Shown: piece by piece, positions 4,449 through 40,341 of the stretch
How the letters are laid out: every line of letters starts with the position of its first letter
How positions within the stretch are numbered: position 1 is the first letter of the stretch
From: a virus
Length of the DNA: 48,487 nt
IMG/VR virus record: IMGVR_UViG_3300033150_001984
Location: 1-48,487 of that record
Direction: 5' to 3' (one strand)
The notes under the pieces: model-generated
What the model was told of the DNA's origin: nothing
Database searches by the model: none
What the model saw: the letters and a program-made list of their open reading frames with translations, nothing else
Made by a program: the position numbers and the translations under genes

Positions 4449-5306
4449 TTATAAGAAAAATTCTCCGCAGAATCCTCCTTCTATACCTTTCCACGTAACT
4501 GCTATCGCCTCAGACGTATGAATACTTTCTTCATGAACACATTTTACTATCCAATCATATATTTTTTCGTTTTTATTTAAATTATTTGAAATAGCTCTTA
4601 TTGCATCTTCAACAAAGATTGGATTCTCTGATGCTATTCTGGCTATTTCTTGCTCATCCTCTCTTTTAATAATTGGATAAGGAATTGTTTTAATAGAATC
4701 TTCAACTATATCAATTAAATCTTCGACCCATATATAATTGTTTTCTTTAATTTCTGCCATTATATTAGCAAAAGATCGTTGGTTATGAGGAAATCCATTC
4801 AAACCTTTATCAATTAAATCTTTCGAAAGAGCTGCCGAACAAGGGCAATACGAAGCGTACTGTACTTTTACTCCTTGAAAAAATCTAAAAGATCCATCTA
4901 TTAATTGACCTTCAAATTTACATTTATAAAAAACTGGAAATTCATAATCTGAAATTACTGATTTTCTTGGTTTTGGCAATTTGAAATTAAATTTTATAAA
5001 AACATTATTTGATTCTACTTTATTTCTTAGATCAACTAAGATTTCTTTTATTAAATCATGTTTTAATGGTAAATTTAAAAAAGGTATTAATGTTCTAATA
5101 AATCTAGACATTGATATACCTTTTGTATCTTCATCCAAATTAGCTCTCATAGATACTTTTGCACATAATGATTCATAGTTCAAATCATCATTTCGTAATT
5201 GTAAAAGAAATGGTACCTCTACATTCTCGACTCCAACTTCTTTGATTGGCAACTTTATGTTTGATTTTCCAGACTGAACATCAGGCAGATTATTTTTTTT
5301 AGACAT
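4449..5306 (-). CDS. folE2: GTP cyclohydrolase FolE2 (type IB)
   Basis: A 285-residue member of the FolE2 family, which opens GTP to 7,8-dihydroneopterin triphosphate, the first step of both folate and 7-deazaguanine (queuosine, archaeosine) synthesis. Family features visible in order: N-terminal PDVQSG at 8-13, VGV at 24-26, the CPCS motif with the catalytic Cys at 154-157, PHNQRS at 173-178, and NPIFVEDAIR near 235-245, which supplies an active-site Glu. The length matches bacterial FolE2. With QueD at 24308-24730 it gives two steps of the preQ0 pathway; QueE and QueC are not in the window. The upstream AAAGGA lies 16 bases from the ATG, a loose spacing. It is separated from polymerase set 1 by a 149-base gap in which I see no gene. 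Confidence 0.9.
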   Translation of the reverse strand: MSKKNNLPDVQSGKSNIKLPIKEVGVENVEVPFLLQLRNDDLNYESLCAKVSMRANLDEDTKGISMSRFIRTLIPFLNLPLKHDLIKEILVDLRNKVESNNVFIKFNFKLPKPRKSVISDYEFPVFYKCKFEGQLIDGSFRFFQGVKVQYASYCPCSAALSKDLIDKGLNGFPHNQRSFANIMAEIKENNYIWVEDLIDIVEDSIKTIPYPIIKREDEQEIARIASENPIFVEDAIRAISNNLNKNEKIYDWIVKCVHEESIHTSEAIAVTWKGIEGGFCGEFFL

Positions 5307-5455: not shown

Positions 5456-8400
5456 TCATTCCGAATCATTCTTTTTTGGTTCCTTTCCTATATTTGTATC
5501 TATTCCAGCAACAGTGAGATAAGCATTTAGTAATTTAACAGATTCTGGAATAATTGATGTTTCGTCTTCTTCTCTTATAAAATTAGCTTCAATGGTTTTC
5601 TTTATGTATTCATTCTTCAAATCAATACAATCAGATTTGGTCGTTAAAAACTCATGAAGATTTTTAGGCGCATCATGAGCTATTAAACAACTTGTTTCCA
5701 TTTCCCCTAGACGTTGACCCCCTTCGTTTTTTCTTCCTCCTAATGGTTGCATTGTTCGTCTAGCATATCCAGATATAGATCTTCCAGAAAGCCTAGATTC
5801 TGCTAAATGAACCATTTTAAAGAAATACATTGAGCCGACTGCAATTTTGTTTTGCAGTTCTTGCCCTGAAACTGGATCATAAATTTTTTGTCGAAACTTA
5901 GTATTTGTGTACTGCAATGCTTTTTTAACATCTGATAAATCAACCGATTCAAATGGAGGTTGCAGAATATATAAATCTTGAATAAATTTTTCGTCAATTT
6001 CTCTAGTTAGTAATTGGTTTTCTAATTGAGTTTTATACCATTTGTTTTCTGTTTTATCAATTATATCAATATAATCAAGTAAATACTTTTTAATTTTATT
6101 TTGATTGTTCTTTTCTTTTATCATTTTCATTAATTCTTTCTTCAAATCTAAAACTGACATTCCTAAATGCAATTCATATAATTGTCCTATGTTCATTCTG
6201 GATATTATACCAAGAGGATTTATACAAATATCAACATGCTCTCCATTTTCTAACTTAGGCATTTTCTCATGCGGTACAATGGATGCGATAACACCCTTAT
6301 TACCATGCCTATTTCCAATCTTATCTCCAGTTTGAATTTTCCTAAAGAAAATTCCAAACATCTCAACTCTAATTCCTTCTATTAATTCACCTTTTATTTT
6401 AAACTTTCCAGTATTTGAGAACTTATCAAACCCTCTATCTTTTATAACTTTCTTTGCATCTTCTTTTGATAAAACACTAAGTATAGCCTTTTTGATATTA
6501 TTTTCTTTTTCAATTTGTTTTTCGATTGTTGACGTAACCCAGGAATTATATTCCTGAACTTCAGTATTCCATTTGTTTGCATAAATATTCATATCAGTTA
6601 TAATAATTTCTTTTTTGAAACTTAACTCAGTTGGATCGTTAAATACTGAATCAAAATCAAAGTTTCCAGTAGGTATTTCTTTCAATTTTGCATAAGGGAA
6701 TCCAGCTTTTACTATATCAAAAAGGTTCGGCACTGGTTTATATTTGGTATCATCTAACGTTAACAAAACTTTGTTTGATGGAATATTAAAAGATAAGTCT
6801 TCATAGTGCATAGATGTTAGTAAATCATCTTTCACTAACCGATCAGATATTACAATTCCATCCTCATAATTATAACCGTAATAAACCATAACCGCAGTTA
6901 ATAATTCTTTGCCAAACTGAATTCTGCCATTATTGCAAAATAGACTTTCAGCTAGTATTTGACCTTGTTTAACTTTATCTCCAACTTTAACATAGATTTT
7001 CATCATATCTAAATTTCCAGTATATATTTTTCTATACTCAATGTTAAAAATGTCAACTGTTTTATCATCATAAACTACAATCATAATAGTATTATCTAAA
7101 TAAGTGACTTCCCCATTCTTCTTTGCAACTTTTACAAATTGTGTTTTGTTCGTATATAATCCTTCGCAGCCACTTTGAATTAACGGTTGATCAAAGTTTC
7201 TTAACATAATTGACTGTCTCATTTGAGAAACAGCCATTTGTAATCTAGTTTGATCATCATGGCTTAGTAAAGGAACCATGGATACTGGAATGGAAATTGG
7301 TTGTTTTTGACAAGCATCTTGAAATCTAAAATCATCAGATAGTTTAACATTAGGAATTAGATTTTGTAAAATGCCGCAATTATCTCTATCTGGAGTGTCA
7401 ACTGGACATAATCTTCCTTCCATTGATCGGTAAATATCTCTTAAATGCTCAGGAACATTTTCCCGATCAAACCCTCCAGGGCCAACCAAACTAGTTCTAG
7501 ATAATTTAGTTAGTTCATCAATCGGATTTATAGCAAAATCAAACTGGATTATATCTGAAACATTACATGCATTTAATATCTGAGTAGAATTAATATTAAA
7601 CTTTGGTTGTCTGGAAGTTCTGTTACTAATGCATAAATCAAAAACTATTTTTGCAAGCTTGGATGTGACTATATATTCCCAGCATCTAAGTCTTTTATTT
7701 GTTAAATCCAAATCATCTACATAATTGCCTCGTATCACATAAATAAGTTCTTCTATCACTGAGGATGTATGAAAAAACTTTACTGACATAATATCAGTTT
7801 TCATAATTAAATCCAGTGCGTAAACTACATCCTCCCCTTTTGATTTCTTGTTATACTTGCTATATTGTTGACCTAACTCTAAGATAAAATCATCTTGAGT
7901 AAACCCTGAAGATTCATCATAATAGATTCTTAAATCATACAATAATTTATCATACATCTTTTCTAAATTTAAAGAATCTTCATTGATGTTTTTAACGTCA
8001 AACTTGTCAATGATATAATCTGGACCATAGTATGCATACATAAGAAGAGATAAAGGAACTTTTTTCCCTAAAAAACTTAATCTAATAAAAGGAACCTCTT
8101 TGCTTTCAAATACCATCAATGTTGCCACATTTGTTCTTAATTTAATATTTTTTCCTCTAGTAATTAGAGGAATATCAAATAATTGAAAAAATGGAATTTT
8201 TCTTCTTCCATTTATTATTATATATTGATCATCAATTAATTTTGGAATTAATATACTTAAATCAATTTCATTGTTTCCTTTTTTCAATATAATAGTTAAG
8301 TTTTCCTTAATAGTTTGATACAATTCACCATTTGATTTTCTAGAATCTTTTATTTCAAACTTAGCAACTTCAAATCCTAGTTCTTCTGCTGGCACTAGAA

Positions 8401-8497
8401 TCTGTCTACAAATATCTAACATTTTCCCATGATCTATTTTTCTAATATCAAATATATTTTTTTCGGACAACGAATAATTCGGATTGTTAAAGTCCAT
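5456..8497 (-). CDS. RNA polymerase beta-like subunit, set 1
   Basis: A 1013-residue homologue of the bacterial RNA polymerase beta subunit. Recognisable blocks are NYEDGIVISDRL (roughly 545-560), GDKIGNRHGNKG (around 725), which is the conserved beta motif near the active centre, and GGQRLGEMETS (around 925) near the C-terminus, all in the order of cellular beta. The N-terminal lobe is reduced compared with the roughly 1150-1350 residues of bacterial beta. In phiKZ-like phages this subunit is split into two chains; here it is one. The ATG at 8497 has AGGAGGT ten bases upstream. The beta' gene lies 15 bases upstream, so the two are made together. No alpha, omega or sigma is seen. Set 2 (33235-40341) is a diverged second copy. 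Confidence 0.93.
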   Translation of the reverse strand: MDFNNPNYSLSEKNIFDIRKIDHGKMLDICRQILVPAEELGFEVAKFEIKDSRKSNGELYQTIKENLTIILKKGNNEIDLSILIPKLIDDQYIIINGRRKIPFFQLFDIPLITRGKNIKLRTNVATLMVFESKEVPFIRLSFLGKKVPLSLLMYAYYGPDYIIDKFDVKNINEDSLNLEKMYDKLLYDLRIYYDESSGFTQDDFILELGQQYSKYNKKSKGEDVVYALDLIMKTDIMSVKFFHTSSVIEELIYVIRGNYVDDLDLTNKRLRCWEYIVTSKLAKIVFDLCISNRTSRQPKFNINSTQILNACNVSDIIQFDFAINPIDELTKLSRTSLVGPGGFDRENVPEHLRDIYRSMEGRLCPVDTPDRDNCGILQNLIPNVKLSDDFRFQDACQKQPISIPVSMVPLLSHDDQTRLQMAVSQMRQSIMLRNFDQPLIQSGCEGLYTNKTQFVKVAKKNGEVTYLDNTIMIVVYDDKTVDIFNIEYRKIYTGNLDMMKIYVKVGDKVKQGQILAESLFCNNGRIQFGKELLTAVMVYYGYNYEDGIVISDRLVKDDLLTSMHYEDLSFNIPSNKVLLTLDDTKYKPVPNLFDIVKAGFPYAKLKEIPTGNFDFDSVFNDPTELSFKKEIIITDMNIYANKWNTEVQEYNSWVTSTIEKQIEKENNIKKAILSVLSKEDAKKVIKDRGFDKFSNTGKFKIKGELIEGIRVEMFGIFFRKIQTGDKIGNRHGNKGVIASIVPHEKMPKLENGEHVDICINPLGIISRMNIGQLYELHLGMSVLDLKKELMKMIKEKNNQNKIKKYLLDYIDIIDKTENKWYKTQLENQLLTREIDEKFIQDLYILQPPFESVDLSDVKKALQYTNTKFRQKIYDPVSGQELQNKIAVGSMYFFKMVHLAESRLSGRSISGYARRTMQPLGGRKNEGGQRLGEMETSCLIAHDAPKNLHEFLTTKSDCIDLKNEYIKKTIEANFIREEDETSIIPESVKLLNAYLTVAGIDTNIGKEPKKNDSE

Positions 8498-8512
8498 ACT
8501 TTAGTATACCTC

Positions 8513-11215
8513 CTATAAAATTTCACCGCAAAGAATTTTATCTAAGATTCCTCGATATTCTCCACTATATATAATACCTCTTAGTATGTTTTTTCTCGGA
8601 TTAGAAAATGCTAATCCTAATAACCAACTTTCATGGCTCGGAACCGATTGAATACTATAAAATACAGGTTTATGATTTTCTCTATCTTTTAATAACCTCC
8701 ATTTTTTAAGTTTATCGCTCCACATTAATTGAGAAACTACACATTCAAAATGAACATGATGAATTTTTCGATTGCTATTATATATTTCAAATAATCTTGA
8801 AACTAAAGTTTCCGCATCAGTTTTTGAGGTATCATGCATTAACTTTGAAGTTTCGCTCAAATCCCCAACAATATCTTGTTGAATCATATTAACTTCTTTC
8901 GTGTTTTTCATATGAGCAACACCAGATGTGTGGAATGTTCTTAAAACTAACTGAGTATTACATTCCCCTAAACTCTGCGCTGCGATTATTCCTATATATT
9001 TTGAAGAAATTGTTTTATGTAAATCCCCATAACAAACATGACATATGTTTTCATTTTTGCAATATATTGGGCTTCTTATTTTAAGCTTTTTTCCGATAAG
9101 CGATAAACAATTATCATCTGTTATTTTATGCAAAGATCCATCTTTGAAGTAATATCTATCAATTAACATTTTTGCTTTTCTTTCCGAATCCACATTCACT
9201 AATAAATAATCGGTTGTTCCACAATCAACCATTTTTTCATCTAGTTTTAGATTAGCACAAGTAAATATTAGTTTTCTGGACAAATACCCAGAAATTCCAG
9301 TATTCAGCGCAACATCCAAAAGTCCTTTTCTGCAACCATATGTTGAAACAAAGAACTCTTTTTCTGTCAAGCCGCTAAGTAAACTATTTTTAATAGGAAC
9401 ATCTAAAATTACTCCCTTAAAGTTAGATATAAATCCTCTTGTCAAAACTATTTGTCTAGCTTGATCCCAACTACCTCTGGCTCCAGATTCAATCATATAA
9501 GAATAATTGAATTTCTTCTTTAACGAACTTAACGTATCATCAGATAAAACTTTTGCTAATCTTTCTATGTTATTTTTTGGTTTATACAATTCTTGTCTAA
9601 TTTCATCAGATTCTTCTATATCACACAAATCAAGAGACAGGGTGGATCCAAATAAAGTCGCATATTTAAATCCTATCTTTTTTATGTTATCTATTACATT
9701 AGATGCTATTTCTATTGGATATGTGTCTTTTATAGTTCCTAAGATTTTTATTAGTTCTTTTTTCTTAACTGGATAATCTATAACTTCAAAGTCTTCTGGC
9801 AAACACTCATTAAATATTTTTTGAGATTCAGTTATTTCTTTATTCTTGTAATTAGTTTTTTCTTGTAGTGAATTAAATAAATTTGAAGTTAGCGAATATA
9901 TTCCGAGAATAATATCTTGACTCGGAGACGTTGACAATTTCTTGTTTGCCGGATTTGTCAGATTTTTTGTTATTAATAATTTATCAATAACTTCTTGTTT
10001 TGCTTCCTCACTTATCGGTATATAAACCGCCATTTGATCACCATCAAAATCTGCATTAAATCCTGGGCAAGCCAATGGATGAATTTTGATAACATTTTCC
10101 ATAGAAACTTTAATTCTAAATCCCAACATATTTAATCTATGTAAAGATGGTTGTCTATTTAAAATACATACTTCATCTTTGGCCATTTCTTGACATAAAT
10201 CAAATAAAACTGGATAATTATAATCAATGCATTTATCTATATAATCAATCGCATCGTTTAGAATTTTAAATGTTTCTTGTTCTATTAATTTTTTAGAAAT
10301 TTTTAACTTAAACAGTTCAAGAAACATAGTATAAGGCAATATGCATTCATCCAATTCTAACGTTGGTTCTGGCGCAATAACTGCACGGCCAGAAAAATCA
10401 ATTCTCTTTCCTAAGATATTTCCTCTAATCAACCCTTCTTTTTTAGCTAACTTAGCTAAAATATTTACATATAACTCGTTAATATCTTTTTGTAATTGCC
10501 TATAATAATTATAATAAAGCTGCTTATCTTTGTTAATATTTAAAATAGTATTTTCCATAGCTTCTTTTTTAGTAAGAATTTGCATATAGTATCTATTAAT
10601 CTTATCCACTTGATTACTATTTCTGGCTTTTGGAGAAGCTGGTCTTAAATCAGGCGGAAGAACAATAACTTCATTTATTATTAGTTTGTCTAAATTATCT
10701 TTTATAATCGTCCATTCTTCATAACCATCATTTGATAAAGTTTCACTTAGCCATCTTACAAGCTCATAAATAGCATCTGTTCTTTCCCATGTTTTGCTAT
10801 TTTTAGGAATATTTTCTTTATTTGTAGTCACAGAAATATTCCCATCAGATTCATATAATATTGATTGTTCGTCTCTCATTAAAGAATCTAAAAGATTCTT
10901 TACATAACTACCGCCAATTTCACATAGTAAATCATACACAATCGGGTTCACAACAGGGATAGGTAATTCAATTTTGGCAAACCGCCTTCTCCGTTCATTT
11001 GCACTTACGGCTTCCACTCCACATACTTTACAAACGAACCCTTTTTTTGAGACGCCGTAATACTCTCCACATGCGCATGTATAATTCTTTACGGGACCAA
11101 AAATCTGTTCCGAAAACAATCCTTCTGAGTGAAACTTTTTCTTGTCGATCAATTTTGTTGTTGAAACGCATTTCATATGTTTGCAGAAATTTTTCACGTC
11201 CAATAGATTCGGCAT
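8513..11215 (-). CDS. RNA polymerase beta'-like subunit, set 1
   Basis: A 900-residue beta' homologue and catalytic partner of the beta-like protein. N-terminal SEGLFSEQIFGP and a zinc-binding pair (CACG and CKVCG) match the beta' clamp start. GKRIDFSGRAVI precedes LNRQPSLHRLNMLG, and FNADFDGDQMA at about 387-394 supplies the three Asp that hold catalytic magnesium. A second Cys cluster (CKNENICHVC) and AAQSLGECNTQLVLRTFH match the C-terminal half. It is shorter than bacterial beta' (about 1200-1400). I start at the ATG at 11215, which has GGGAGGAC upstream; the longer frame to 11260 lacks this. Its first 188 bases overlap the end of the upstream gene. Confidence 0.93.
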   Translation of the reverse strand: MPNLLDVKNFCKHMKCVSTTKLIDKKKFHSEGLFSEQIFGPVKNYTCACGEYYGVSKKGFVCKVCGVEAVSANERRRRFAKIELPIPVVNPIVYDLLCEIGGSYVKNLLDSLMRDEQSILYESDGNISVTTNKENIPKNSKTWERTDAIYELVRWLSETLSNDGYEEWTIIKDNLDKLIINEVIVLPPDLRPASPKARNSNQVDKINRYYMQILTKKEAMENTILNINKDKQLYYNYYRQLQKDINELYVNILAKLAKKEGLIRGNILGKRIDFSGRAVIAPEPTLELDECILPYTMFLELFKLKISKKLIEQETFKILNDAIDYIDKCIDYNYPVLFDLCQEMAKDEVCILNRQPSLHRLNMLGFRIKVSMENVIKIHPLACPGFNADFDGDQMAVYIPISEEAKQEVIDKLLITKNLTNPANKKLSTSPSQDIILGIYSLTSNLFNSLQEKTNYKNKEITESQKIFNECLPEDFEVIDYPVKKKELIKILGTIKDTYPIEIASNVIDNIKKIGFKYATLFGSTLSLDLCDIEESDEIRQELYKPKNNIERLAKVLSDDTLSSLKKKFNYSYMIESGARGSWDQARQIVLTRGFISNFKGVILDVPIKNSLLSGLTEKEFFVSTYGCRKGLLDVALNTGISGYLSRKLIFTCANLKLDEKMVDCGTTDYLLVNVDSERKAKMLIDRYYFKDGSLHKITDDNCLSLIGKKLKIRSPIYCKNENICHVCYGDLHKTISSKYIGIIAAQSLGECNTQLVLRTFHTSGVAHMKNTKEVNMIQQDIVGDLSETSKLMHDTSKTDAETLVSRLFEIYNSNRKIHHVHFECVVSQLMWSDKLKKWRLLKDRENHKPVFYSIQSVPSHESWLLGLAFSNPRKNILRGIIYSGEYRGILDKILCGEIL

Positions 11216-11609
11216 ATTTTGTCCTCCCTTCATTATAGTATCTAAAATCCTTGTCATCAACTACTTTAATCTTATTATGTAATATATCATATGCAATATA
11301 ATCAATCCATATTGAACTATTACAATTATATACAGATAAACAAATTGCTTTGATTTTTTCTAATAAACGATCATCAAAGTGCCTAGCTTTAACGGTACGA
11401 GGTAAACATATTTCATTATATTTATCCATATTAGCATGAAAACCAGAAATATCAATACCACATAAAATATTAGAGGGTGAAAATCTAACAAATATTTTTT
11501 TAACACAATATTTATCTAGAGCTTCTGTCACAGAATAAAATCGATTCCCGTACATGATATACTCTACGGGCATGTTTACGTCTATATCAAGAATTTTAAA
11601 GTCGCCCAT
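11028..11609 (-). CDS. Unknown protein (193 aa) overlapping the beta' gene
   Basis: A 193-residue frame from ATG 11609 (GGGAG eight bases upstream, two bases after the stop of the second E1-like gene). Its 3' third overlaps the beta' start by 188 bases in another frame, an unusually long overlap for this compact genome. The N-terminal two thirds (MGDFKILDIDVNMPV, CGIDISGFHANMDKYNE, IDYIAYDILHNKIKVVDD) look like a folded alpha/beta protein. The C-terminal overlapping part is basic (Arg/Lys-rich). I see no known family. Its position between the ubiquitin-like cassette and polymerase set 1 makes a role with either possible. Confidence 0.55.
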   Translation of the reverse strand: MGDFKILDIDVNMPVEYIMYGNRFYSVTEALDKYCVKKIFVRFSPSNILCGIDISGFHANMDKYNEICLPRTVKARHFDDRLLEKIKAICLSVYNCNSSIWIDYIAYDILHNKIKVVDDKDFRYYNEGRTKYAESIGREKFLQTYEMRFNNKIDRQEKVSLRRIVFGTDFWSRKELYMRMWRVLRRLKKRVRL

Positions 11610-11610
11610 G

Positions 11611-12483
11611 CTATGCACTCCCATCAAATGGTGTAATGAATAGTTTATTTGATGATAACCTTAAAATAAAACTTGAGAAATTTAAATCAGACACTTTTTC
11701 ACATAGAATTTTTACACATGAATTAGAATCAGTAAACGAATCTTTCTTAATTTTTTCTATTGGAATTCCTTCGTAACATATAATTATATCTTTATTTTTG
11801 TTTTCTTCAACTATTTTTTTTTCAATCGCTGCTATGTTAACAAACTTATCTTCACCAGGAATTTCTTCCCGAATATAATCTAGGTCATTTACTTGCTGCT
11901 TTTCAATCTCTCTTTTTAAATATAATATTCGGTCGTATTTATCTTTCATAGAAAAGATTTTGTTATGATCTAGTTCAACAATATTGTTTTTCAATATAGG
12001 GTAAAAATACTGAAGTGATAGTCTCGAAACGAATGATGCTTTATATAACTCGTCTGCTTTAATTTCAAACGAATAAGTAGATGAAATATAAGAATAATTT
12101 TTTGGTTCATTAAGGCAATCAATAACCAAACTTTCATTAGGATTTAGAATTAAAAGTTTAATATCATAACTTATACCTTCATACGAAATATCTCTGCAAT
12201 CTATAATCAAATCATAATATTCACTGTTTTTTTCTTGATATTTATATGGAATTCCAATAAATCTTTTATCTTTTAATATATCAGCAGACAAACAGTTTAC
12301 TTTTAACTTTCCAATATGATATTTTTTGTATATTGTATTTTGTTTCTCTATGTTTTTTTCAGTGACTTTATCAAAATCATAACATACTAATGCTTTAATT
12401 GTTTTTACTTTAAGCAACTCTTTACATAAAAATCCTCCAAGGCTTCCTGCGCCAACTACACACAGTGTTTTATTATTAAGCAT
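11611..12483 (-). CDS. Second ThiF/E1-like Rossmann protein
   Basis: A 290-residue protein with an N-terminal nucleotide-binding motif VVGAGSLGG (residues 9-17), a YDFDKVTEKNIEKQN segment matching the DxDxVxxxNLxRQ block of ThiF/E1 enzymes, and LIIDCRD in place of the usual D(N/C)xDxxxxR. This is the adenylation fold of E1, MoeB and ThiF, but the Arg finger is replaced by Lys and no clear catalytic Cys is seen, so it may be a degenerate partner like the inactive half of a heterodimeric E1. The frame extends upstream to 12552, but those residues come from the terminator; GGAGA before the ATG at 12483 fixes the start. It follows the ubiquitin-like gene. Confidence 0.7.
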   Translation of the reverse strand: MLNNKTLCVVGAGSLGGFLCKELLKVKTIKALVCYDFDKVTEKNIEKQNTIYKKYHIGKLKVNCLSADILKDKRFIGIPYKYQEKNSEYYDLIIDCRDISYEGISYDIKLLILNPNESLVIDCLNEPKNYSYISSTYSFEIKADELYKASFVSRLSLQYFYPILKNNIVELDHNKIFSMKDKYDRILYLKREIEKQQVNDLDYIREEIPGEDKFVNIAAIEKKIVEENKNKDIIICYEGIPIEKIKKDSFTDSNSCVKILCEKVSDLNFSSFILRLSSNKLFITPFDGSA

Positions 12484-12530
12484 ATTCTCCTCGTTCTTTT
12501 TATATAAAACACATCTGAAACGGTTCTGAA

Positions 12531-12576
12531 AAAAAAAAATAGAGAGGGGCATAATAGCCCCTCTCTATTTTTTTTT
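12531..12576 (-). terminator. Strong rho-independent terminator, symmetric
   Basis: AGAGAGGGGC and GCCCCTCTCT form a perfect stem around the six-base loop ATAATA, flanked by matching A and T runs so that pairing extends to about 20 bases. It would terminate transcription from either direction. It lies directly after the stop of the ubiquitin-like gene at 12582 and before the second E1-like gene, and so divides the cassette into two transcription units or sets their relative levels. Confidence 0.9.
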
Positions 12577-12581
12577 ATTTT

Positions 12582-12989
12582 TTATCCTTTTTGTCCAGAG
12601 GGTTTTACGAACTCAAGATTATCACCTGATTTCAGTACATAATCCTTTTCCACGCTTTCGCCATTAACTAAAGGCGAAGTTACGCTATCAATGTTTAAGA
12701 TTTCTGACAAAACGTTTGCTACTTCGCTAACCGTTTTCCCACAAACAGGAAACTCATCCGAATTTGCTCCGCAGCTAACTCTGATTAAAGACTTCCAATT
12801 ATTATCCTCTCTTTCAGATGAGATATTAAAATCAATTTCATCGATTCTATTATCATTTGATTGTCTTTGCATAATAGCTTCAATGATCTCATGTTTCCTT
12901 TTCTTCGTGTATCCAACTATGTTCAAGCTAACAACAAGTTTTCTGAGTGCATTCACAGTCATAGCATTCAAAGATTCGTACGTATACAT
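12582..12989 (-). CDS. SAP-like domain fused to a ubiquitin-like beta-grasp protein
   Basis: A 135-residue protein in two parts. Residues 1-42 (ESLNAMTVNALRKLVVSLNI and then KKRKHEIIEAIM) look like a SAP/HeH-type helical motif, usually nucleic-acid-binding. Residues about 66-135 look like a ubiquitin-like/MoaD-type beta-grasp domain: strand SLIRVSCG, helix TVSEVANVLSEILN, then PLVNGESVEKDYVLKSGDNL and a C-terminus FVKPSGQKG ending in Gly. The VNG...D..L..GD pattern and the GxKG tail match my memory of the PRTRC plasmid protein C family. A free terminal Gly is what an E1 adenylates. The ATG at 12989 has AGGAG. The gene lies 12 bases after the E1 gene and is followed by a strong terminator. Confidence 0.8.
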   Translation of the reverse strand: MYTYESLNAMTVNALRKLVVSLNIVGYTKKRKHEIIEAIMQRQSNDNRIDEIDFNISSEREDNNWKSLIRVSCGANSDEFPVCGKTVSEVANVLSEILNIDSVTSPLVNGESVEKDYVLKSGDNLEFVKPSGQKG

Positions 12990-13001
12990 TTAGTTCTCCT
13001 T

Positions 13002-13691
13002 CTAAATTGTTTTAGTTTTTCTTACTTTTGGGGCCACATTCATTTTTTCCATATCAAAATAAATTTCCGATATTTTAACATTGTTCAAAATAACAACATT
13101 ATAAAACATCCAACACATTATAGTAGCAACTGAAAGGTTAGCAAAGAATAACTGGGGTTCTGATTTTGACAATTCTTCACAAGACATTTCTTCGGGCGAT
13201 TTATCCTTTGGATGTTCAATCTCAGGATGATAATCCGTAAGTCTTGGAGTTATATTTTTATTTCCTTTTTTTACAAATAACTGAACATTGCCATCATAAA
13301 ATTCATTACCTCCAGAAATAAGAATAATATCGTTTAAACCAGAAACATAATCAGAAACTATTTTTCTTGTTCTATGATTATCAACAGACAAAATAACAAT
13401 ATCTTTATCATGTATCATGGTTTCAATATTTCCTTCGTTAACATAAAATTGTATGTTATCATATTTTATCGATGTGAACTTTTTAGATAACTCATCTGAT
13501 TTAATAAAAGATTTATTACCATACTCAAAAAACTCTTGCCTCTCTAGATTTTTAGGTTGATATTCATCCCCATCAATCAGAGTAATAGACACATCAAATT
13601 TATTTTGATAATTTAAGAATCTAGATACTTTATCAACAAATAATCCGCCAACACCTCCGATTCCAACAACTTTAATATTAAGGTTATCCAT
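13002..13691 (-). CDS. ThiF/E1-like activating enzyme, PRTRC type
   Basis: A 229-residue E1-like enzyme expected to adenylate the C-terminal Gly of the neighbouring ubiquitin-like protein. It shows GIGGVGG at 10-16 for ATP binding, LIDGDEYQPKNLERQ at 38-52 (Asp42, Asn48, Arg51, Gln52) and VDNHRTR at 103-109. GNEFYDGNVQLFV and a late MSCEELSKSEPQLFFAN (Cys171) follow the arrangement I know from PRTRC ThiF proteins, where that Cys precedes a QxLFxN segment; Cys171 is the best catalytic-Cys candidate. The start at 13691 is chosen for GAGG nine bases upstream; the JAMM gene ends at 13693, so the two are translationally coupled. Confidence 0.85.
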   Translation of the reverse strand: MDNLNIKVVGIGGVGGLFVDKVSRFLNYQNKFDVSITLIDGDEYQPKNLERQEFFEYGNKSFIKSDELSKKFTSIKYDNIQFYVNEGNIETMIHDKDIVILSVDNHRTRKIVSDYVSGLNDIILISGGNEFYDGNVQLFVKKGNKNITPRLTDYHPEIEHPKDKSPEEMSCEELSKSEPQLFFANLSVATIMCWMFYNVVILNNVKISEIYFDMEKMNVAPKVRKTKTI

Positions 13692-13692
13692 T

Positions 13693-14700
13693 TCATACAT
13701 CCTCAGAATTATACTTGAAAGCAAGCTGGTCATCTAAATCATCATATTGAAATATACTTTCATATAAATCAATTACATCATTTAGAAAATCTTGATCTTC
13801 CTCAGCCAAAAGATTTAGTTTTTGTCTCCTATATTTACATGTTTTACAAACATCTTCATTTGTTTCATGTTCCTCAACATTATTCTTTATGTAATTACTA
13901 GGATAATCATATTTGTCTGACCAATCCAGAAAACGATCAAAAACCATAAAATCATTATATCGGTTCGGTATTATAATTACTTCTTCTTTTTGCACAGAAA
14001 CTTTGTCTAACCATTTTTTTGGGAATTTTTCCTCTTCAACATAATAAAATTTTCTATGTACACTTACTTTATGAAAATATCCGCTCCTAAAACTACTTTC
14101 CTCCAGCTCTGTTCCTTCTACGATAGAATTAATATGATCTTTAGGGGACGTTTTAAATCTCGTTCCGTTCACCATCACTGATGCCGAAATTGAAACTTTA
14201 TTTCTGTTTACATTTCCGACAGTAATATGAATACCATCAATATTTTTTTCATCTTCCGTATCAACAGATGAATGAAATGATCCAAAGGTATTATGACTAT
14301 GGATTGTCCCTATTAAATCAAAGTCATTCGAATAAGACTCTTTGTAAGAGTTTAATATATCATATTTTATTGACCCTCCGCTAACTTCTTGATCTGGCAC
14401 AATCACTTTGTATTTCCTCTTGGTTGCGTTATAACATAACAAAACCACCGATTCTGCGTTATATAGTTCATTTACTTTTTTAAAGAAAGAACATATCTGA
14501 AAAAACATTTTTAGTGGTATTTTCTTTATATTAACTTTCGCATAACATTGGACTTCTTTCAAATGACTGATAGAATTTACCGGAACTACGCTCTCAAATA
14601 TTCCGATTTTCTTTTTTAAATAAATTCCATCTTTTCCGATTATATAACAAATTTTTTTATCAGGCATCTGATCGCTGTTCTTTAAAAAGATAGGAAACAT
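13693..14700 (-). CDS. JAMM (JAB/MPN+) metalloprotease with C-terminal zinc pair
   Basis: A 335-residue protein with a complete JAMM active site: Glu83 (AESVVLL), then H134-S-H136, Ser144 and Asp147 in IGTIHSHNTFGSFHSSVD, the exact H-x-H-x7-S-x2-D spacing of zinc deubiquitinases. The FHSSVDTEDE context resembles PRTRC protein A. A CKTC pair at 285-288 in the C-terminal region may form half of a zinc site. In bacteria such enzymes trim the tail of ubiquitin-like precursors or remove conjugates. The ubiquitin-like protein here already ends near Gly, so deconjugation is the likelier role (inference). The start overlaps the stop of the E2-like gene (TAATG). Confidence 0.88.
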   Translation of the reverse strand: MFPIFLKNSDQMPDKKICYIIGKDGIYLKKKIGIFESVVPVNSISHLKEVQCYAKVNIKKIPLKMFFQICSFFKKVNELYNAESVVLLCYNATKRKYKVIVPDQEVSGGSIKYDILNSYKESYSNDFDLIGTIHSHNTFGSFHSSVDTEDEKNIDGIHITVGNVNRNKVSISASVMVNGTRFKTSPKDHINSIVEGTELEESSFRSGYFHKVSVHRKFYYVEEEKFPKKWLDKVSVQKEEVIIIPNRYNDFMVFDRFLDWSDKYDYPSNYIKNNVEEHETNEDVCKTCKYRRQKLNLLAEEDQDFLNDVIDLYESIFQYDDLDDQLAFKYNSEDV

Positions 14701-17075
14701 TAGTACACCTCGCTATAATCTATATATTCTTTTTTAACAGAAAATAAATCAGGCATTGTTCCATTACATAAATCTGGTGTTACATGTCCAGTTTTAATAA
14801 ATTCTTTTCGGTTATGTGATTCAAGAATTGATGGGGCAATTCTTGGAGTTAAAACACCGTATCTTTTCATGTCAGGTTTTTTTCTATTTAATACTACAAA
14901 AGGATAAGACAAAGTATAATATTTTCCATTATTATACTCGTACAAATACCCAGAAGAAATAAACAAATCTCCTGGTTGATTATGAACTTGTTGTCTAATG
15001 ATATATTTTAGTTCATGCTTATCGTATTCCGGATCAGTCTTAGAAATAAAATCAAATAAATTAGTCCAACACATAGGAATAGTTAAACAATTTGAACAAA
15101 GAATTAAATGGTTATTACCTCCTGTTACATCAACAAGAATTCCGACTACACTATTCACATGATTTTTTGGGAACCCATATATTTTACTATATTTAGCTTT
15201 AACTTTCATTCCACTATGAATATTTCCGACTCGATCATGAATATGTCTAATCGAACCTGCGTATACGATGTTTTCATGAATAAATTTTTCTCGAGTGTTA
15301 ATTCCATCATCTCCTATAAGTCTAAAGTACAATGATGAGTATTTTACTTCAAACCCAGCAATTTTTTGTATTTTTGGAATATTAGACATATGATCCCAGT
15401 CAAAAACAACTACATTATCGCCTACATTAAAATTAATAGGATAATCAACTCCGTCAATAAAAACCGACTTCCCTGAATTGGTTAGACATGTGCCCGTATT
15501 ATAATTATAAGGAAAAGTTCTTTCATAAAACAATCCACCATTAGTTTTAATTACTTTTATTTTTTCTTTATTTGTCGAATAAAGATTACATGATATCCTA
15601 TAATTACCTGAAATCTCTTTTGTTTCTATTATTTCATTTTGTTCAATTATTATTTTGCTACCATTTTCTATAGACTTTATACTATATGTGTCAATTAGAT
15701 TTTGGTTCTTGTTTAAAAACTTAAGCATTAACATATCGTTTTCCATCGAAGCCCCTTCAAATACACATTCTTTAAACAGTCTGTTTACTGAAGATGAATA
15801 AAGAATTATTATTTGATCTCCTTTTGAAATCTTTTTTCCTTTGATAGTTATGTTATTTAAGTCAATTTTTTCAATTTTTTCTATTGAATCAGCAATAACT
15901 GAATTAAAAAATGAATCTGTTAATTCAATAACGTTATCATAACTTTTACGTATGTTCCTTATTTCCATTACTAAGTCTTTATCATAGTTTCTAATTTTAT
16001 ATTTTATTACATCACCTTGGTTGATAACTATTCCATTAATAACAACATTGTTATTCTCCTTGTTATAAATATAATCAACAAAACTATTTCGTAATTCATT
16101 AGTTAAGTCAACTTCAATTATTTTTCTGTTTTTATCAATTAGTTCTATTTTTTTGGTTCCGTTCCTATCAATAATAGAGTATACGTTATATTTTTTATTT
16201 TCATATTCTACAACGTCTCCGACTGCAATCCAATACTTTCCACAACGAATTGCAGAGGTATAGATATAATTTTTAGTCTTATTGTCAGCTAAGGAACATG
16301 ACTCACGAAAATTAAAATAGGCATCAGAATCTGCATACCTTCGTTTAATATTCATTATATGTTCATCCAATGTCTTATTTACTTTTATCCAATCTAAAGA
16401 TAATACAAACATTGGATTTTTCTTTGTGCACTCATGCCAAGTAAAAAAGTCACGTAATTGCGGAATTCGTTTCGAATATTCTAAATAGTTTTCAGTATAG
16501 TCTATATTAAAATAGCTATTCCAAAAAACTCTAATTAACTGCTCTGGTATTTCATTCGATTTAAAGTTATTGAAACGTTCTTTCATACATACTTCATCAC
16601 TACTATTAACATTTGGTAAATTAGTTTTTAGTAAATAATCAGTTTTAAACTTTAACGGATGAACTCTATAAAAAACATTACAGAACGCATGATTATAAGA
16701 AACATCAATGACATAAATAATATATGGAAATGCTAAATTAAACTTTAACATGTCAGATTTATTTCTAACTCTGTGATTATCTATAATATTTTTTTCTTGT
16801 TTGAATATCCAGTCAGAGCTATCAAAAAACAATGTTCTTACTGCCGGCGGTTCTTCTATGACATACAAATCTCTGGTCCTGCTAATGTTTTCTACATACC
16901 TACAATTTTTAGGCAATATACAATTTTTTTTAATGGTTGAATGTAAATTATCAACAAAATCTTTGAATTGAACTAAAGTTTCTCTTTTATACATAACAAA
17001 ATTATTATCATCAGAACTGGTAGCTCGTATTACGGATACATCATTGGGAGTGATGAAAAGACCTTGTTCATTCAT
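14700..17075 (-). CDS. E2-like (UBC-fold) protein with long beta-barrel repeat region
   Basis: A 791-residue protein. Residues about 70-200 look like an E2 core of the kind found in PRTRC protein B: hydrophobic strands (FPYIIYVIDV, CNVFYRV), then a TNLPNVNSSDEVCM segment in which Cys163 is in the position of the catalytic Cys, followed by helices. From about residue 270 onward there are several segments of the type GDVVEYENKKYNVYSI, GDVIKYKI and KGDQIIIL, each resembling an SH3-like or KOW-type barrel, which suggests a string of small beta domains. The start at 17075 has AAGGGGAA. The E2 assignment is motif-based, and no His-Pro-Asn is seen. It overlaps the JAMM gene. Confidence 0.65.
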   Translation of the reverse strand: MNEQGLFITPNDVSVIRATSSDDNNFVMYKRETLVQFKDFVDNLHSTIKKNCILPKNCRYVENISRTRDLYVIEEPPAVRTLFFDSSDWIFKQEKNIIDNHRVRNKSDMLKFNLAFPYIIYVIDVSYNHAFCNVFYRVHPLKFKTDYLLKTNLPNVNSSDEVCMKERFNNFKSNEIPEQLIRVFWNSYFNIDYTENYLEYSKRIPQLRDFFTWHECTKKNPMFVLSLDWIKVNKTLDEHIMNIKRRYADSDAYFNFRESCSLADNKTKNYIYTSAIRCGKYWIAVGDVVEYENKKYNVYSIIDRNGTKKIELIDKNRKIIEVDLTNELRNSFVDYIYNKENNNVVINGIVINQGDVIKYKIRNYDKDLVMEIRNIRKSYDNVIELTDSFFNSVIADSIEKIEKIDLNNITIKGKKISKGDQIIILYSSSVNRLFKECVFEGASMENDMLMLKFLNKNQNLIDTYSIKSIENGSKIIIEQNEIIETKEISGNYRISCNLYSTNKEKIKVIKTNGGLFYERTFPYNYNTGTCLTNSGKSVFIDGVDYPINFNVGDNVVVFDWDHMSNIPKIQKIAGFEVKYSSLYFRLIGDDGINTREKFIHENIVYAGSIRHIHDRVGNIHSGMKVKAKYSKIYGFPKNHVNSVVGILVDVTGGNNHLILCSNCLTIPMCWTNLFDFISKTDPEYDKHELKYIIRQQVHNQPGDLFISSGYLYEYNNGKYYTLSYPFVVLNRKKPDMKRYGVLTPRIAPSILESHNRKEFIKTGHVTPDLCNGTMPDLFSVKKEYIDYSEVY

Positions 17076-17097
17076 TATTAGTTCCCCTTGTTTAACT

Positions 17098-17424
17098 TTA
17101 ATATCCAAGTTGTTGCCTTATGGTATTTAAATCATTATCATCATTATTTTCGGCCAAAGTTTCGTTGGTATTTTCATCTTGTACATTAATTTCAGTTTCT
17201 GCCAAATCATTATTTTCGGCCAAAGTTTCGTTGGTATTTTCATCTTGTACATTAATTTCAGTTTCCATAGAATCATCTGACTTGTCTTCTTTGTTAAAAT
17301 AACAAAGAATGTATTCTATCATACTTTCTTTTTTTCTGCCAATAACTCCCTTGATTTTATTGTTTTTGCAAATTTCATTCAATTCGGTCACTTTCATTTT
17401 TTCAAGCGATTCTTTTGTGTACAT
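17098..17424 (-). CDS. SAP-like domain protein with acidic tandem repeat
   Basis: A 108-residue protein. Residues 1-43 (ESLEKMKVTELNEICKNNKI, then RKKESMIEYIL) resemble the N-terminal SAP/HeH-like motif of the ubiquitin-like protein at 12582-12989; both start MYT-x-ESL. The rest is a very acidic, Asn-rich and probably disordered tail containing a 22-residue unit repeated twice in tandem (NVQDENTNETLAENND). The motif could tether the protein to DNA or to a shared partner, and the tail could act as a spacer or a binding site. GGAG lies eight bases before the ATG at 17424. It is 22 bases upstream of the E2-like gene, in the same operon. Confidence 0.7.
   Translation of the reverse strand: MYTKESLEKMKVTELNEICKNNKIKGVIGRKKESMIEYILCYFNKEDKSDDSMETEINVQDENTNETLAENNDLAETEINVQDENTNETLAENNDDNDLNTIRQQLGY
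17140..17265 (-). repeat. Two direct 60-base repeats, period 66
   Basis: Positions 17140-17199 and 17206-17265 are identical for 60 bases with a period of 66, that is 22 codons, inside the SAP-like gene. Identity at the DNA level, including third positions, indicates a recent duplication, likely to vary in copy number between relatives. Confidence 0.9.
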
Positions 17425-18182: not shown

Positions 18183-18542
18183 TTAGTGCTTAATATAGAA
18201 TCTATTTTTGTTTAGATCTTCTATCCACTTTGCTTTATCAAAGGGAACCGATCTCCAATCATTTTTTTCCAGATCAAAAACATGAACAATTTTATTTTTA
18301 GTTATTAACTTTAAAATTTTAGCAATATCTACTTTCTTTGGATGCTTGTTTTTTGGAATTTTATCAAAATTCAACGTACACATCATAACTCTATCTGTTC
18401 CGTCTTTTTTAGTAAATTTAATAACAACCTGCTCGGAATTTCTTATTTTGTTAAAAAATTCGATAGCATCCTCTATTGGCAAATTTGCGTTTGTTCCAGT
18501 CGATGGTTTGTTCTTTAGAGTGTGTTTGTCATTTTTAGCCAT
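18183..18542 (-). CDS. Phage SH3-barrel-fold protein
   Basis: A 119-residue protein with the pattern IKFTKKDGTDRVMMCTLNFDKIP and, near the end, VFDLEKNDWRSVPFDKAKW. A charged strand with KKDG-x-x-R-x-M-x-CTLN followed by a V-x-DL-x-KNDWRS strand is typical of a widespread small phage family annotated as SH3 beta-barrel-fold proteins, whose role is unclear and may involve nucleic acid or protein binding. The N-terminal 25 residues are Lys/Asn/Thr-rich and probably disordered. Its start lies eight bases inside the end of the radical SAM gene, so the two are coupled. I take the family assignment from memory of the pattern only. Confidence 0.65.
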   Translation of the reverse strand: MAKNDKHTLKNKPSTGTNANLPIEDAIEFFNKIRNSEQVVIKFTKKDGTDRVMMCTLNFDKIPKNKHPKKVDIAKILKLITKNKIVHVFDLEKNDWRSVPFDKAKWIEDLNKNRFYIKH

Positions 18543-19587
18543 TATTAGTGTCCCTTTTGTTAGAATGCAATAAGTTATCTAAAGAATCGTCTTTGTTATA
18601 TAAAATTTTACTCATAATCACACAAGTCCAATTACATTTTTTGCACCATAAATCTTTATCATATTTGATAGCATATCGAAGAGATCTAAGTTCTCCATCT
18701 TTTGTAACATATTCATGTACTTTCTTTTTCGGTGTGATAACGCCTCTTATTCGTAAACATAACCTAACGCTTCCATCAGAATCAATAGTTAGATTATGTA
18801 CTCCATTCTCCATTTCACAATCATAATTAGAAGGCAACATACAAAACATTTCTGGTAGCAGACAATCAGCCATATGAACCTGGTAATCATTCTCTAAAAT
18901 TTTTGAAAATGATGTCATTAGAGTTTTAGATTTATTAACTAGTTGATTTTCATCAATAATATTACTAAAATCATAATACTCAGATTTAGAAATATCTATA
19001 AAAGTTATATCCGATGATATATCATTTTTAGTCATTAATTCAACTAAGTCAGGAAGATGAGCAAGAGATTCATTGTCCACTGTTATTTCAGCGACTCTGT
19101 CGGTACAAACATCTTTTAAATCAATCAACCGGTTAAAACCAGAAACACTTTTTTTATATCTGTCAGACTTTGTTTCATGTTGGTTAATTATCACTGGGTC
19201 AACAGAGGAAGTTATTCCTTGTAAATATCCAGTTTTATTAATTAGTTTTTCCATCAATGGTTGTATCTCTTCTGTGTTATTCGTAATAATAGTATAGTTA
19301 ATTTTTTCATCATTGCAAAACGAAATAATTTCTGGAAGATCTTTTCTTAACAGTGGTTCCCCACCATAGAAAATATGAAAAATATTTTTGTTATGCTTTT
19401 TTAACCTATAAAGAATATCTATAACATAATCCGTTGACATTTCATTTTTAAGATAATATGACATATATGGATATTTACTTGGTTTGTTATCATAATTTCT
19501 TACAATTCTACAATAATGACATTTTAAATTACATTTTCTCGTTAAAATCCAAGAAACAATTTGAATTTTATCAACTTCTGTTATCAT
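18535..19587 (-). CDS. Radical SAM enzyme with C-terminal Cys-rich (SPASM/twitch-like) region
   Basis: A 350-residue radical SAM protein. Cys19, Cys23 and Cys26 in TRKCNLKCHYC form the canonical CX3CX2C site for the 4Fe-4S cluster, and FYGGEPLLRKD at about 75-85 is the GGE motif that contacts S-adenosylmethionine. The C-terminal third has an additional set of Cys (CEMENGVHNL, LCLRIRG, WCKKCNWTC), the arrangement of SPASM or twitch domains that hold auxiliary clusters in peptide- and protein-modifying enzymes. I start at the ATG at 19587 after GGGAG. It heads the operon containing the SH3-like, 123- and 128-residue proteins and the ubiquitin-like cassette. Substrate unknown; peptide modification is possible but inferred. 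Confidence 0.85.
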   Translation of the reverse strand: MITEVDKIQIVSWILTRKCNLKCHYCRIVRNYDNKPSKYPYMSYYLKNEMSTDYVIDILYRLKKHNKNIFHIFYGGEPLLRKDLPEIISFCNDEKINYTIITNNTEEIQPLMEKLINKTGYLQGITSSVDPVIINQHETKSDRYKKSVSGFNRLIDLKDVCTDRVAEITVDNESLAHLPDLVELMTKNDISSDITFIDISKSEYYDFSNIIDENQLVNKSKTLMTSFSKILENDYQVHMADCLLPEMFCMLPSNYDCEMENGVHNLTIDSDGSVRLCLRIRGVITPKKKVHEYVTKDGELRSLRYAIKYDKDLWCKKCNWTCVIMSKILYNKDDSLDNLLHSNKRDTNNG

Positions 19588-19628
19588 AAACACTCCCTTT
19601 TATCTTTAAAATTTAGCATGTCGAAATT

Positions 19629-24307: not shown

Positions 24308-24730
24308 CTATATTATATTAACAGGAGCTACTCCATAACTAGCCACAGAATCTTCGTTTTCCCAAATTGCTACGTAAAGTAAATGATGTTCAGAATTTAA
24401 CTTTTCAGATATTTTTTTATATAACATTTCAGATAAAACTTCCGCAGTTGGGTCTTTTCCCTCTGGAACAGTAATAACTTTTATGTCTTCTTTTATTACC
24501 ATTGGATCATTTTCATTTAAAAATAAACAATGATCCCAATCCTTTAGTAAATCATTAACAACATTCTTTAAATCTGAAAAATCAATCACCATATCTTTTT
24601 CGTTAAGTCGATCTGAACTTACTGTGACTAGTATTTTTAAGTTATGACCATGTAAATTCTTACACAAAGATTCATTTTTGAACAGTCTATGACCGCAAGG
24701 ATACCGAAATGTTTTTGTAACCGTGTACAT
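24308..24730 (-). CDS. queD: 6-carboxy-tetrahydropterin synthase QueD
   Basis: A 140-residue member of the 6-pyruvoyl-tetrahydropterin synthase/QueD family, which converts dihydroneopterin triphosphate to 6-carboxy-5,6,7,8-tetrahydropterin in 7-deazaguanine synthesis. Zinc ligands His14, His27 and His29 are present, with Cys23 in CKNLHGH at the catalytic position; the C-x-x-LHGH spacing is that of QueD. The C-terminal VAIWENEDSVASYG carries the substrate-binding Glu. It uses the product of FolE2 encoded at 4449-5306. It lies between the topoisomerase and helicase genes with spacers of six to eight bases, so it is expressed with replication genes. AGGAG precedes the ATG. Confidence 0.92.
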   Translation of the reverse strand: MYTVTKTFRYPCGHRLFKNESLCKNLHGHNLKILVTVSSDRLNEKDMVIDFSDLKNVVNDLLKDWDHCLFLNENDPMVIKEDIKVITVPEGKDPTAEVLSEMLYKKISEKLNSEHHLLYVAIWENEDSVASYGVAPVNII

Positions 24731-40300: not shown

Positions 40301-40341
40301 AGACTTTTTGTAAACTTTTCGATATCGAGAAAGTTTAGCAT
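37339..40341 (-). CDS. RNA polymerase beta'-like subunit, set 2
   Basis: A 1000-residue beta' homologue with the catalytic NADFDGDQMA at 366-375. GLFSETIFG opens the clamp region, GKRVDFSTRAVI precedes the active site, and IFCESKKICHTC plus AAQVIGEVGTQLIMRTFH mark the C-terminal half. Unlike set 1, the N-terminal zinc-binding CxCG/CxxCG pair is absent (the equivalent reads NLETIHRRQTFSYIDLNC). The C-terminal GLAFENIGKAI matches GLAFSNPRKNI of set 1, so both end at the same structural point. It follows the 144-residue gene by two bases. Confidence 0.94.
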   Translation of the reverse strand: MLNFLDIEKFTKSLTPVTNSEILSKTGDFSDDGLFSETIFGNLETIHRRQTFSYIDLNCNVIHPTGLKILIQLDRKVEKFISTENSFSLDENKRLIVDENGVTGIEAFIELFPRIKFRGETETREKYIQLIKNSYSNKRLFINKIPVIPPEFRPAYKDESGMWIIDELNNVYISIIRRAEQIKSSGSGPLFDLLNYSMQKSVNEHDSFIKLKVSKKHGLIRQNLLGKRVDFSTRAVIAPGPELKTNEVGIPFRIAVTLFNPFIIHIILYTDRFDKKELDNQIQDFLGVPLSVDTLQQVLKNIKNNDEIPETLYNIIWDATELAMMNRYVICKRDPVLHAESLRGMKPKLVDGDVIKVSTVQVGGFNADFDGDQMAIYHPITDKAQKEIQERMMNGKTGVSSNSINYSISKEMCVGLYFMTKDVSLKGPFLSVLDDDLQTRTDIYSPVNYRGVNTSLGKAIFNSCLPEKYPFVNQVVTKSIANNIISDIVDKFNDEEGQKAIYKMKNFAFKFSTIMAPSIRLSDIQVPDQIYELKKDLEDADPDKAQELLDAMLKILKDYLKDTGLYAIVESGAGKGWNGPMQILVAKGIIKDPKGNILKPIKGSFSDGLSPEEYFKASPGGRAGIIDRVLNTADTGYMSRKLAYVLNNVELSQSNKDCGTKDTLTIKLDKYLISRIDGRYYVNNKGKLELFDKSKFKSGDMIKLRSPIFCESKKICHTCYGNLLLRHKSRFVGILAAQVIGEVGTQLIMRTFHTGGAVKLQSRQLINDIIDNDPLVTENTVRNKLVQNETQLITQQDCKLIIDLNSYEIDTDLTIDEIEKTIWVKSLICRIEYQDVTFNIILDYPIELKAMDMIKHGKFYIELTFKKGEIILEGASGADDLKKEVHFIERLLGGKEIFKDTQHLFKKLSHVYFSKSKMDSVHLEILLSNVLRCRRDLSLPARLCKPFNPVMTNIKNIVFSTSFIQGLAFENIGKAISTGLIADTVDEPSILEQVLTGEFK

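Follow-up and report, generated by a model that had tools for sequence, protein, structure and literature searches.

In bacteria, conjugation of ubiquitin-like proteins (Ubls) is known from reports of host defence and of plasmid functions. The bacterial ISG15-like (Bil) antiphage system combines a Ubl, an activating enzyme (E1), a conjugating enzyme (E2) and a deubiquitinase of the JAMM type. PRTRC loci are plasmid operons of E1, E2, JAB and Ubl genes, and they apparently correspond to row 6d in the 2006 article by Iyer et al. (PMC1779556). An experimental account of the function of a PRTRC-type system was not found in the open literature searched. That literature, mostly open-access and therefore no proof of absence, also held no report of a phage PRTRC system or of Ubl conjugation in a jumbo phage; a survey of jumbo phages (PMC7824862) does not discuss ThiF, JAB or Ubl systems. 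Here we describe a predicted Ubl conjugation cassette in the IMG/VR virus record IMGVR_UViG_3300033150_001984, whose 48,487 bases are referred to as the window. The window is a fragment of the genome of a large phage.

The cassette encodes a modifier, an E1 (E1a), a large E2 and a JAMM peptidase, followed by a second E1-E2 pair (E1b and E2b) and by the RNA polymerase genes rpoC and rpoB (Table 1). All of its genes lie on the minus strand, overlap or almost touch their neighbours, and carry Shine-Dalgarno-like sites. The order E2-JAMM-E1a-Ubl-E1b-E2b-rpoC-rpoB is dominant and was found in dozens of viral contigs; chance is excluded because both the gene order and the active sites are conserved across them. 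Judged by sequence, the features expected of a Ubl conjugation pathway are present: a putative beta-grasp modifier with a C-terminal Gly, an E1 that combines ATP-binding residues with a catalytic Cys, and an E2 with a UBC-type domain and a Cys. It is therefore highly probable that the cassette carries out enzymatic Ubl conjugation. The best explanation overall, which we regard as fairly likely, is a phage-encoded Ubl conjugation pathway in a gene run shared with a viral RNA polymerase.

Table 1. Positions in the window of the cassette genes and their neighbours (aa, amino acids)
Gene	Position	Strand	Product and remarks
rpoB	5456..8497	-	Beta subunit; Pfam Rpb2 domains 3, 6, 7; same gene run
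rpoC	8513..11215	-	Beta prime subunit; Pfam Rpb1 domains 2-5; after the cassette in relatives too
E2b	11028..11627	-	Probable second E2 (UBC)-like protein; HxN...C motif; between E1b and rpoC
E1b	11611..12552	-	Second ThiF-like protein, 313 aa; adenylation domain in N-half; probable start 12483
Modifier (Ubl)	12582..12989	-	135 aa; N-terminal Rho_N (SAP-like) and putative ThiS/TGS-type beta-grasp Ubl; ends ...SGQKG
E1a	13002..13733	-	PRTRC-ThiF-like activating enzyme, 243 aa; probable start 13691-13700; Cys185
JAMM	13693..14700	-	JAMM/MPN metallopeptidase, PRTRC-A-like, 335 aa; ligands E83, H134, H136, S144, D147
E2	14700..17108	-	Prok-E2_D/PRTRC-B-like with long C-terminal SH3-like (KOW/Tudor-like) barrel array, 802 aa; Cys174 = 16587-16589
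Small protein	17098..17424	-	Rho_N/SAP-like, 108 aa, upstream of E2; Rho_N 20.5 bits, below cut-off
WYL_2 protein	18183..18542	-	Sm-like/SH3; conserved neighbour; PF10902 39 bits
Radical-SAM protein	18535..19593	-	Conserved neighbour and independent seed; PF04055 43.4 bits

The original prediction had placed five of these proteins on one strand, and minus-strand frames with the residues that it named were found there. It regarded the locus as a complete PRTRC-like conjugation cassette. The E1-E2-Ubl-JAMM set is indeed complete; however, the E2b gene (11028-11627) had been overlooked, and a second E1-E2 pair exists. The span 11611-17424 does not belong entirely to the ubiquitin pathway, because the 108-aa gene at 17098-17424 is Rho_N/SAP-like and encodes no enzyme of that pathway. 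A counterpart of this gene stands at the equivalent place in three relatives (L003, L004 and L006; L numbers denote the loci compared).

Relatives were collected by profile scans with E1a (42 viral loci) and with JAMM (99 stretches, 80 kept), while a scan of viral contigs with the single JAMM sequence gave no match. The neighbouring radical-SAM gene was used as an independent seed, which avoids circularity, and yielded 60 loci; loci from different seeds may share one contig. All of E2, JAMM, E1a, Ubl and E1b occur in 55 of these 60 loci, so that the cassette is near-core in a lineage of giant phages and not a sporadic accessory. Among the remaining loci, L188 and L193 are truncated where the flank or the contig stops, with an 800-aa E2-like protein visible in L193; in L195, a recognised E2 is the only one of the five that is missing, in L201 the cassette is reduced to E1b-E2b, and none of the five is present in L198. 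The cassette-bearing relatives include contigs of up to 277, 248, 245, 224 and 223 kb. Eleven cassette contigs were tested for terminase, which was present in nine, and exactly two ThiF proteins were encoded in 10 of 11 contigs. A nucleus-forming PhuZ phage is unsupported, because no tubulin (PhuZ) was found in the large relatives.

E1a matched Pfam ThiF (PF00899) with 52.8 bits, above the cut-off of 28.1. Its best NCBIfam match, over the full length, was PRTRC_ThiF (49.6 bits; the TIGR03736 cut-off of 144.75 was not reached). Cys185, the late Cys noted at the outset, is conserved in 73/73 sequences together with D54, R65 and D118, and K78 in 65/73; the GxGGxG motif is kept in all 36 aligned relatives. 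The JAMM protein has every metal ligand at exactly the positions first given for it: H134, H136, S144 and D147 are kept in 78/78 distinct sequences and E83 in 77/77 where aligned, and the ligands are invariant among 36 aligned relatives. It scored 32.8 bits against PRTRC_A (TIGR03735), below the curated threshold of 101.8. Its profile matches to solved structures are weak and mainly to RPN11/AMSH, and a weak match to BilC (E 0.73) was also obtained. JAMM is predicted to be the enzyme of Ubl processing and deconjugation.

The modifier ends in Gly, as had been noted, and its K134-G135 is conserved in 71/71 sequences. The Rho_N domain scored 31.4 bits in the window (cut-off 24.9), and the ThiS match (E 3.2e-4) was just under the Pfam cut-off. 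Within the family, Rho_N was matched by 20, TGS by 14 and ThiS by 12 of 23 members. Polyubiquitin is matured by deubiquitinases. KG is the exact end of 45 of the 71 modifiers, 23 continue beyond it for up to 10 residues, and three have longer tails; in L042 (10725-11684), a tandem di-Ubl is arranged as Rho_N-Ubl-Rho_N-Ubl with AGRKG at the end of both units. From these tails, which about one third of the modifiers carry, and from the single tandem di-Ubl, we infer that precursors are processed, in the pattern expected for JAMM maturation. The copy in the window would need no trimming, since its KG is already terminal. Endings of the form [A/S]GxKG are common to these modifiers and to PRTRC-like Ubls of Gram-positive plasmids and phages, including L009, with two copies ending KAGTKG. 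In two Gram-positive plasmids (L010 5952-6893 and L014 5761-6771), the JAMM protein has an N-terminal region that appears Ubl-like by eye, with a KKGA junction, and these proteins are possible Ubl-JAMM fusion precursors.

The large E2 probably starts at the ATG at 17075, with a Shine-Dalgarno-like sequence nearby. The window's protein alone gave no significant match in domain and family library scans; Prok-E2_D (PF14460) was matched by 22 of 33 family members (best E 3.3e-6), and the Cys of the VCM motif, which had been noticed originally, is conserved in 70/70 distinct sequences. A search of isolated phages with this E2 by tblastn gave no match. In its AlphaFold (AF2) model (pLDDT 79.5), about 500 residues rich in beta strands follow the E2 domain. 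The top Foldseek matches in the PDB were Spt5 in DSIF (9.8e-5) and agenet/Tudor proteins, and no E2 was among the top 50 matches. Because the TM-scores are low (about 0.1), the modeled likeness to Spt5 is at most one of shared small SH3-like barrels and not of a global fold. An array of such barrels would be common to this E2, Spt5/DSIF and the NusG-type KOW factors; however, the phage array is fused to an E2, no NGN domain was shown, and the likeness does not establish homology.

The phage E1, JAMM and E2 are homologous to the PRTRC proteins by profile. With hhalign, E1a matched plasmid ThiF at 99.9%, JAMM matched plasmid PRTRC_A proteins at 99.7%, and E2 matched plasmid PRTRC_B at 96.3% (E 1.7e-9) with the catalytic Cys aligned. 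The profile comparison proposed in the original prediction therefore succeeded for three of the proteins and not for the modifier, which had no NCBIfam match to PRTRC_C (TIGR03738) and no significant hhalign match to it; all that it has in common with PRTRC_C is the GxKG ending, found in some members of that family (AAGAKG, IGTKG). The order B-A-ThiF matches that of C. necator pHG1 (L054). However, the phage Ubl gene comes after E2, not before, and its product is fused to Rho_N; the E2 has the SH3-like array, and the extra E1b-E2b pair and the rpoC-rpoB run are joined to the set. PRTRC_B-type E2s have a conserved His after the catalytic Cys (PMC1779556), which is replaced by an N-x-D pattern in the phage E2 and also in some Gram-positive homologues. 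The NCBIfam scan of the window E2 gave no match to PRTRC_B (TIGR03737), and no E or F gene was recognised in the conserved phage run. PRTRC ParB (TIGR03734), already thought to be missing, was not found in the window; a weak ParB-like match (24.5 vs 278.6 bits) lies about 25 kb from the cassette in two of six large relatives. PRTRC_D (TIGR03739) had no match in seven records, in which the control profile matched nowhere either. Since the curated cut-offs were missed and a PRTRC-type ParB is absent, the cassette is, by these profiles, not a PRTRC member but a new PRTRC-like variant of Ubl conjugation carried by phages.

The pathway is encoded by the phage, as had been proposed, but it is not unique to this virus. 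Minimal modules were found in five other viral contigs (L124, L126, L132, L134 and L139) and, without a recognised E2, in L137. An isolated, culturable phage, Bacillus phage vB_BauM_KLEB27-3 (L008, OM634661.1), encodes at 1718-2425 a protein (gp199) annotated as 'hypothetical protein' in which four PRTRC_C Ubl units follow one another head to tail; the match scores 61 bits (cut-off 45.95), and every unit ends in AGVKG. Its gene is located upstream of E2_D-like, PRTRC_A-like and ThiF genes, and no PRTRC ParB was matched in this phage. KLEB27-3 thus shares with the window a phage-borne E2_D-JAMM-ThiF run and a Ubl of similar ending, but its Ubl is a tetramer without Rho_N, its E2 has 255 aa without the array, and no E1b-E2b lies nearby. 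The Bil set of Ubl, E1, E2 and JAMM is also common to the window, whereas here the set is phage-encoded and near-core, the E1 is ThiF/PRTRC-like and the modifier carries Rho_N. The genome scan gave only two cellular-binned relatives, L052 and L053. In L053 (5357-8640), a contig binned as bacterial, pilus, leuC/leuD-like and glycolysis genes surround a minimal E2-JAMM-E1-Ubl cassette whose E1 shows 45% identity. In Vibrio phage D69 (L011, 5812-7870), a PRTRC_A-like JAMM gene adjoins a ThiF-like gene, and both are annotated as hypothetical.

The second E1-like protein, E1b, was recognised from the start and scored 29.1 bits against PF00899, just above the same cut-off. A Shine-Dalgarno-like sequence adjoins its probable start. 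E1b retains nucleotide-binding residues, with the GxGxxG motif, D59 and K84 conserved in 68/68 sequences; the terminal Ala is conserved in 67/68. E1b has no Cys at the E1a position, its C-terminal region is divergent, and its N-half matched plasmid ThiF at 98.4% by hhalign. A beta-grasp fold at the E1b C-terminus, an idea formed by eye, is only a lead, because the hhalign comparison with the Ubl was not significant. Matches of E1a and E1b to CBASS-type E1-E2 proteins in defence libraries reflect the common adenylation domain, and this assignment was rejected.

The tract HPNxxPxTxxFCL is the classical active-site tract of UBC proteins, and E2b aligns with short proteins of the relatives that contain it. 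H64 and C74 are conserved in 63/63 sequences and P65 and N66 in 61/63 each, with Ala at 65 in the window. The family profile matched just three PDB entries, all eukaryotic E2s aligned at HPN...CL and weak (E 0.037-0.68), and one family member matched UQ_con at 0.0059. The AF2 model of E2b (pLDDT 89.9) follows the E2 arrangement of strands, active-site loop and helix; Foldseek gave no significant match for it, with the E2 CDC34A at E 0.79 and TM 0.41. From the motif and the model, E2b is probably a UBC-like E2. Conservation extends over about the first 110-130 aa only, and the remainder overlaps rpoC. This frame reaches about 190 bases into rpoC (11028-11215), whereas relatives overlap by about 20 at most; the long overlap may be an extension, a frameshift or an assembly error. 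In nine aligned relatives, such as L003 (11226-11699), an extra gene of 137-203 aa lies between Ubl and E1b; it is missing from the window, and no relation to the PRTRC_B E2 was found.

E1b-E2b is a second, separable module. L048 and L037 carry E2-JAMM-E1a-Ubl without E1b-E2b in the contigs examined, while L201, a 92-kb fragment, has E1b-E2b (12124-13382) beside rpoC-rpoB and no detectable E1a, JAMM or core Ubl anywhere.

In the proposed mechanism, JAMM would, if necessary, cut precursors of the modifier back to the C-terminal Gly. E1a would adenylate the modifier and load it onto Cys185, from which the large E2 would receive it on its own catalytic Cys and join it to lysines; JAMM would also remove conjugated modifier. 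Less certainly, the KOW/Tudor-like array of E2 and the Rho_N domain of the modifier could direct the reaction to transcription complexes. The targets would then be RNA polymerase, of the phage or of the host, or proteins associated with it, and the tag, by adding a nucleic-acid-binding domain, could alter elongation, termination or polymerase assembly. The pointers to transcription are Rho_N in the modifier, the Rho_N-like gene before E2, and rpoC-rpoB directly downstream of the cassette, an adjacency that had been noted originally and is kept in relatives. This predicted domain content points to transcription rather than to the marking of host or virion proteins, as first suggested. Because the Spt5-type likeness is at most one of small SH3-like barrels, the transcription machinery is the preferred target only tentatively. 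The analysis suggests that this widespread family of giant phages attaches chemical tags to proteins in the course of infection, with transcription proteins as possible targets.

Several points weigh against a conjugation pathway tied to the viral RNA polymerase. The modifier profile does not align significantly with PRTRC_C. The barrels behind the Spt5 match are frequent in many proteins. The cassettes of L132, L137, L124, L126 and L134 do not adjoin this RNA polymerase within their 20-kb loci, and the adjacency to rpoC-rpoB may reflect co-expression alone. In L201, the RNA polymerase and E1b-E2b occur in the absence of the four core genes; therefore, the polymerase function there is not strictly dependent on them.

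A more specific scheme, in which tagging is co-transcriptional and an Spt5-like E2 rides RNA polymerase and attaches the RNA/DNA-binding Rho_N Ubl to the transcription apparatus while E1b-E2b independently uses another modifier, possibly the Ala-ending E1b tail, is rather doubtful. Conjugation of the modifier to virion proteins, or its guidance of virion assembly with JAMM as a maturation peptidase, has a precedent in lambda, where gpK, a JAMM protein, cleaves gpI to release its Ubl domain, as a 2025 conference report describes (PMC12908700) and as had been predicted (PMC1779556). The near-core presence of the cassette is also typical of maturation functions. However, lambda TAPI/TAPK (gpI/gpK) is a phage-encoded Ubl and JAMM without E1 or E2 that acts in tail assembly, and processing alone needs no complete E1 and E2. 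The cassette lies in a run of RNA polymerase and DNA-metabolism genes (topoisomerase, helicase, SbcCD), not among tail genes, and its JAMM is PRTRC-A-like; a virion role is accordingly unlikely.

Counter-defence genes are usually sporadic. A near-universal cassette in a fixed position is unlike them, and a complete conjugating pathway exceeds the needs of a deconjugase. An action against host conjugation defence, suggested originally, is thus disfavoured, and takeover by tagging host proteins, or opposition to Bil- or CBASS-type conjugation by JAMM and a decoy Ubl, seems improbable, even though host Ubl conjugation acts against phages in Bil (as cited in PMC12660748) and in CBASS (PMC10097602) and deconjugase-only strategies were proposed for Borgs (PMC12660748). 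A sulfur-carrier pathway, in which a ThiS-like thiocarboxylate serves tRNA or cofactor thiolation, would agree with the ThiF-like E1 and with ThiS and TGS as the best Pfam matches of the modifier beyond Rho_N. It is very unlikely in view of two E2-like proteins with an invariant catalytic Cys and of tandem or tailed precursors; moreover, the families found in the window include no rhodanese, cysteine desulfurase or thiazole gene. A degenerate, non-catalytic PRTRC remnant of plasmid origin could explain the undetected ParB and PRTRC_D (its control also without match) and the unreached TIGR cut-offs, but is scarcely credible given the near-core presence and the conservation of all catalytic residues across highly diverged relatives.

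By sequence, a broad lineage of giant phages retains the whole pathway, two E1-E2 pairs included, beside its own RNA polymerase. If active, the pathway would let bacterial viruses run their own ubiquitin-like signalling during infection, and PRTRC-type systems would gain a tractable context. Related questions can be tested now in the isolated phage KLEB27-3.

The window encodes two multi-subunit RNA polymerases, at 5456-11215 and 33235-40341, and the second protein pair lies close to virion genes. Other genes encode topoisomerase II, SbcCD-like proteins, a helicase, a tail lysozyme and an amidase. GTP cyclohydrolase FolE2 and QueD-like genes are found at 4449-5306 and 24308-24730, hinting at 7-deazaguanine modification of DNA or RNA.

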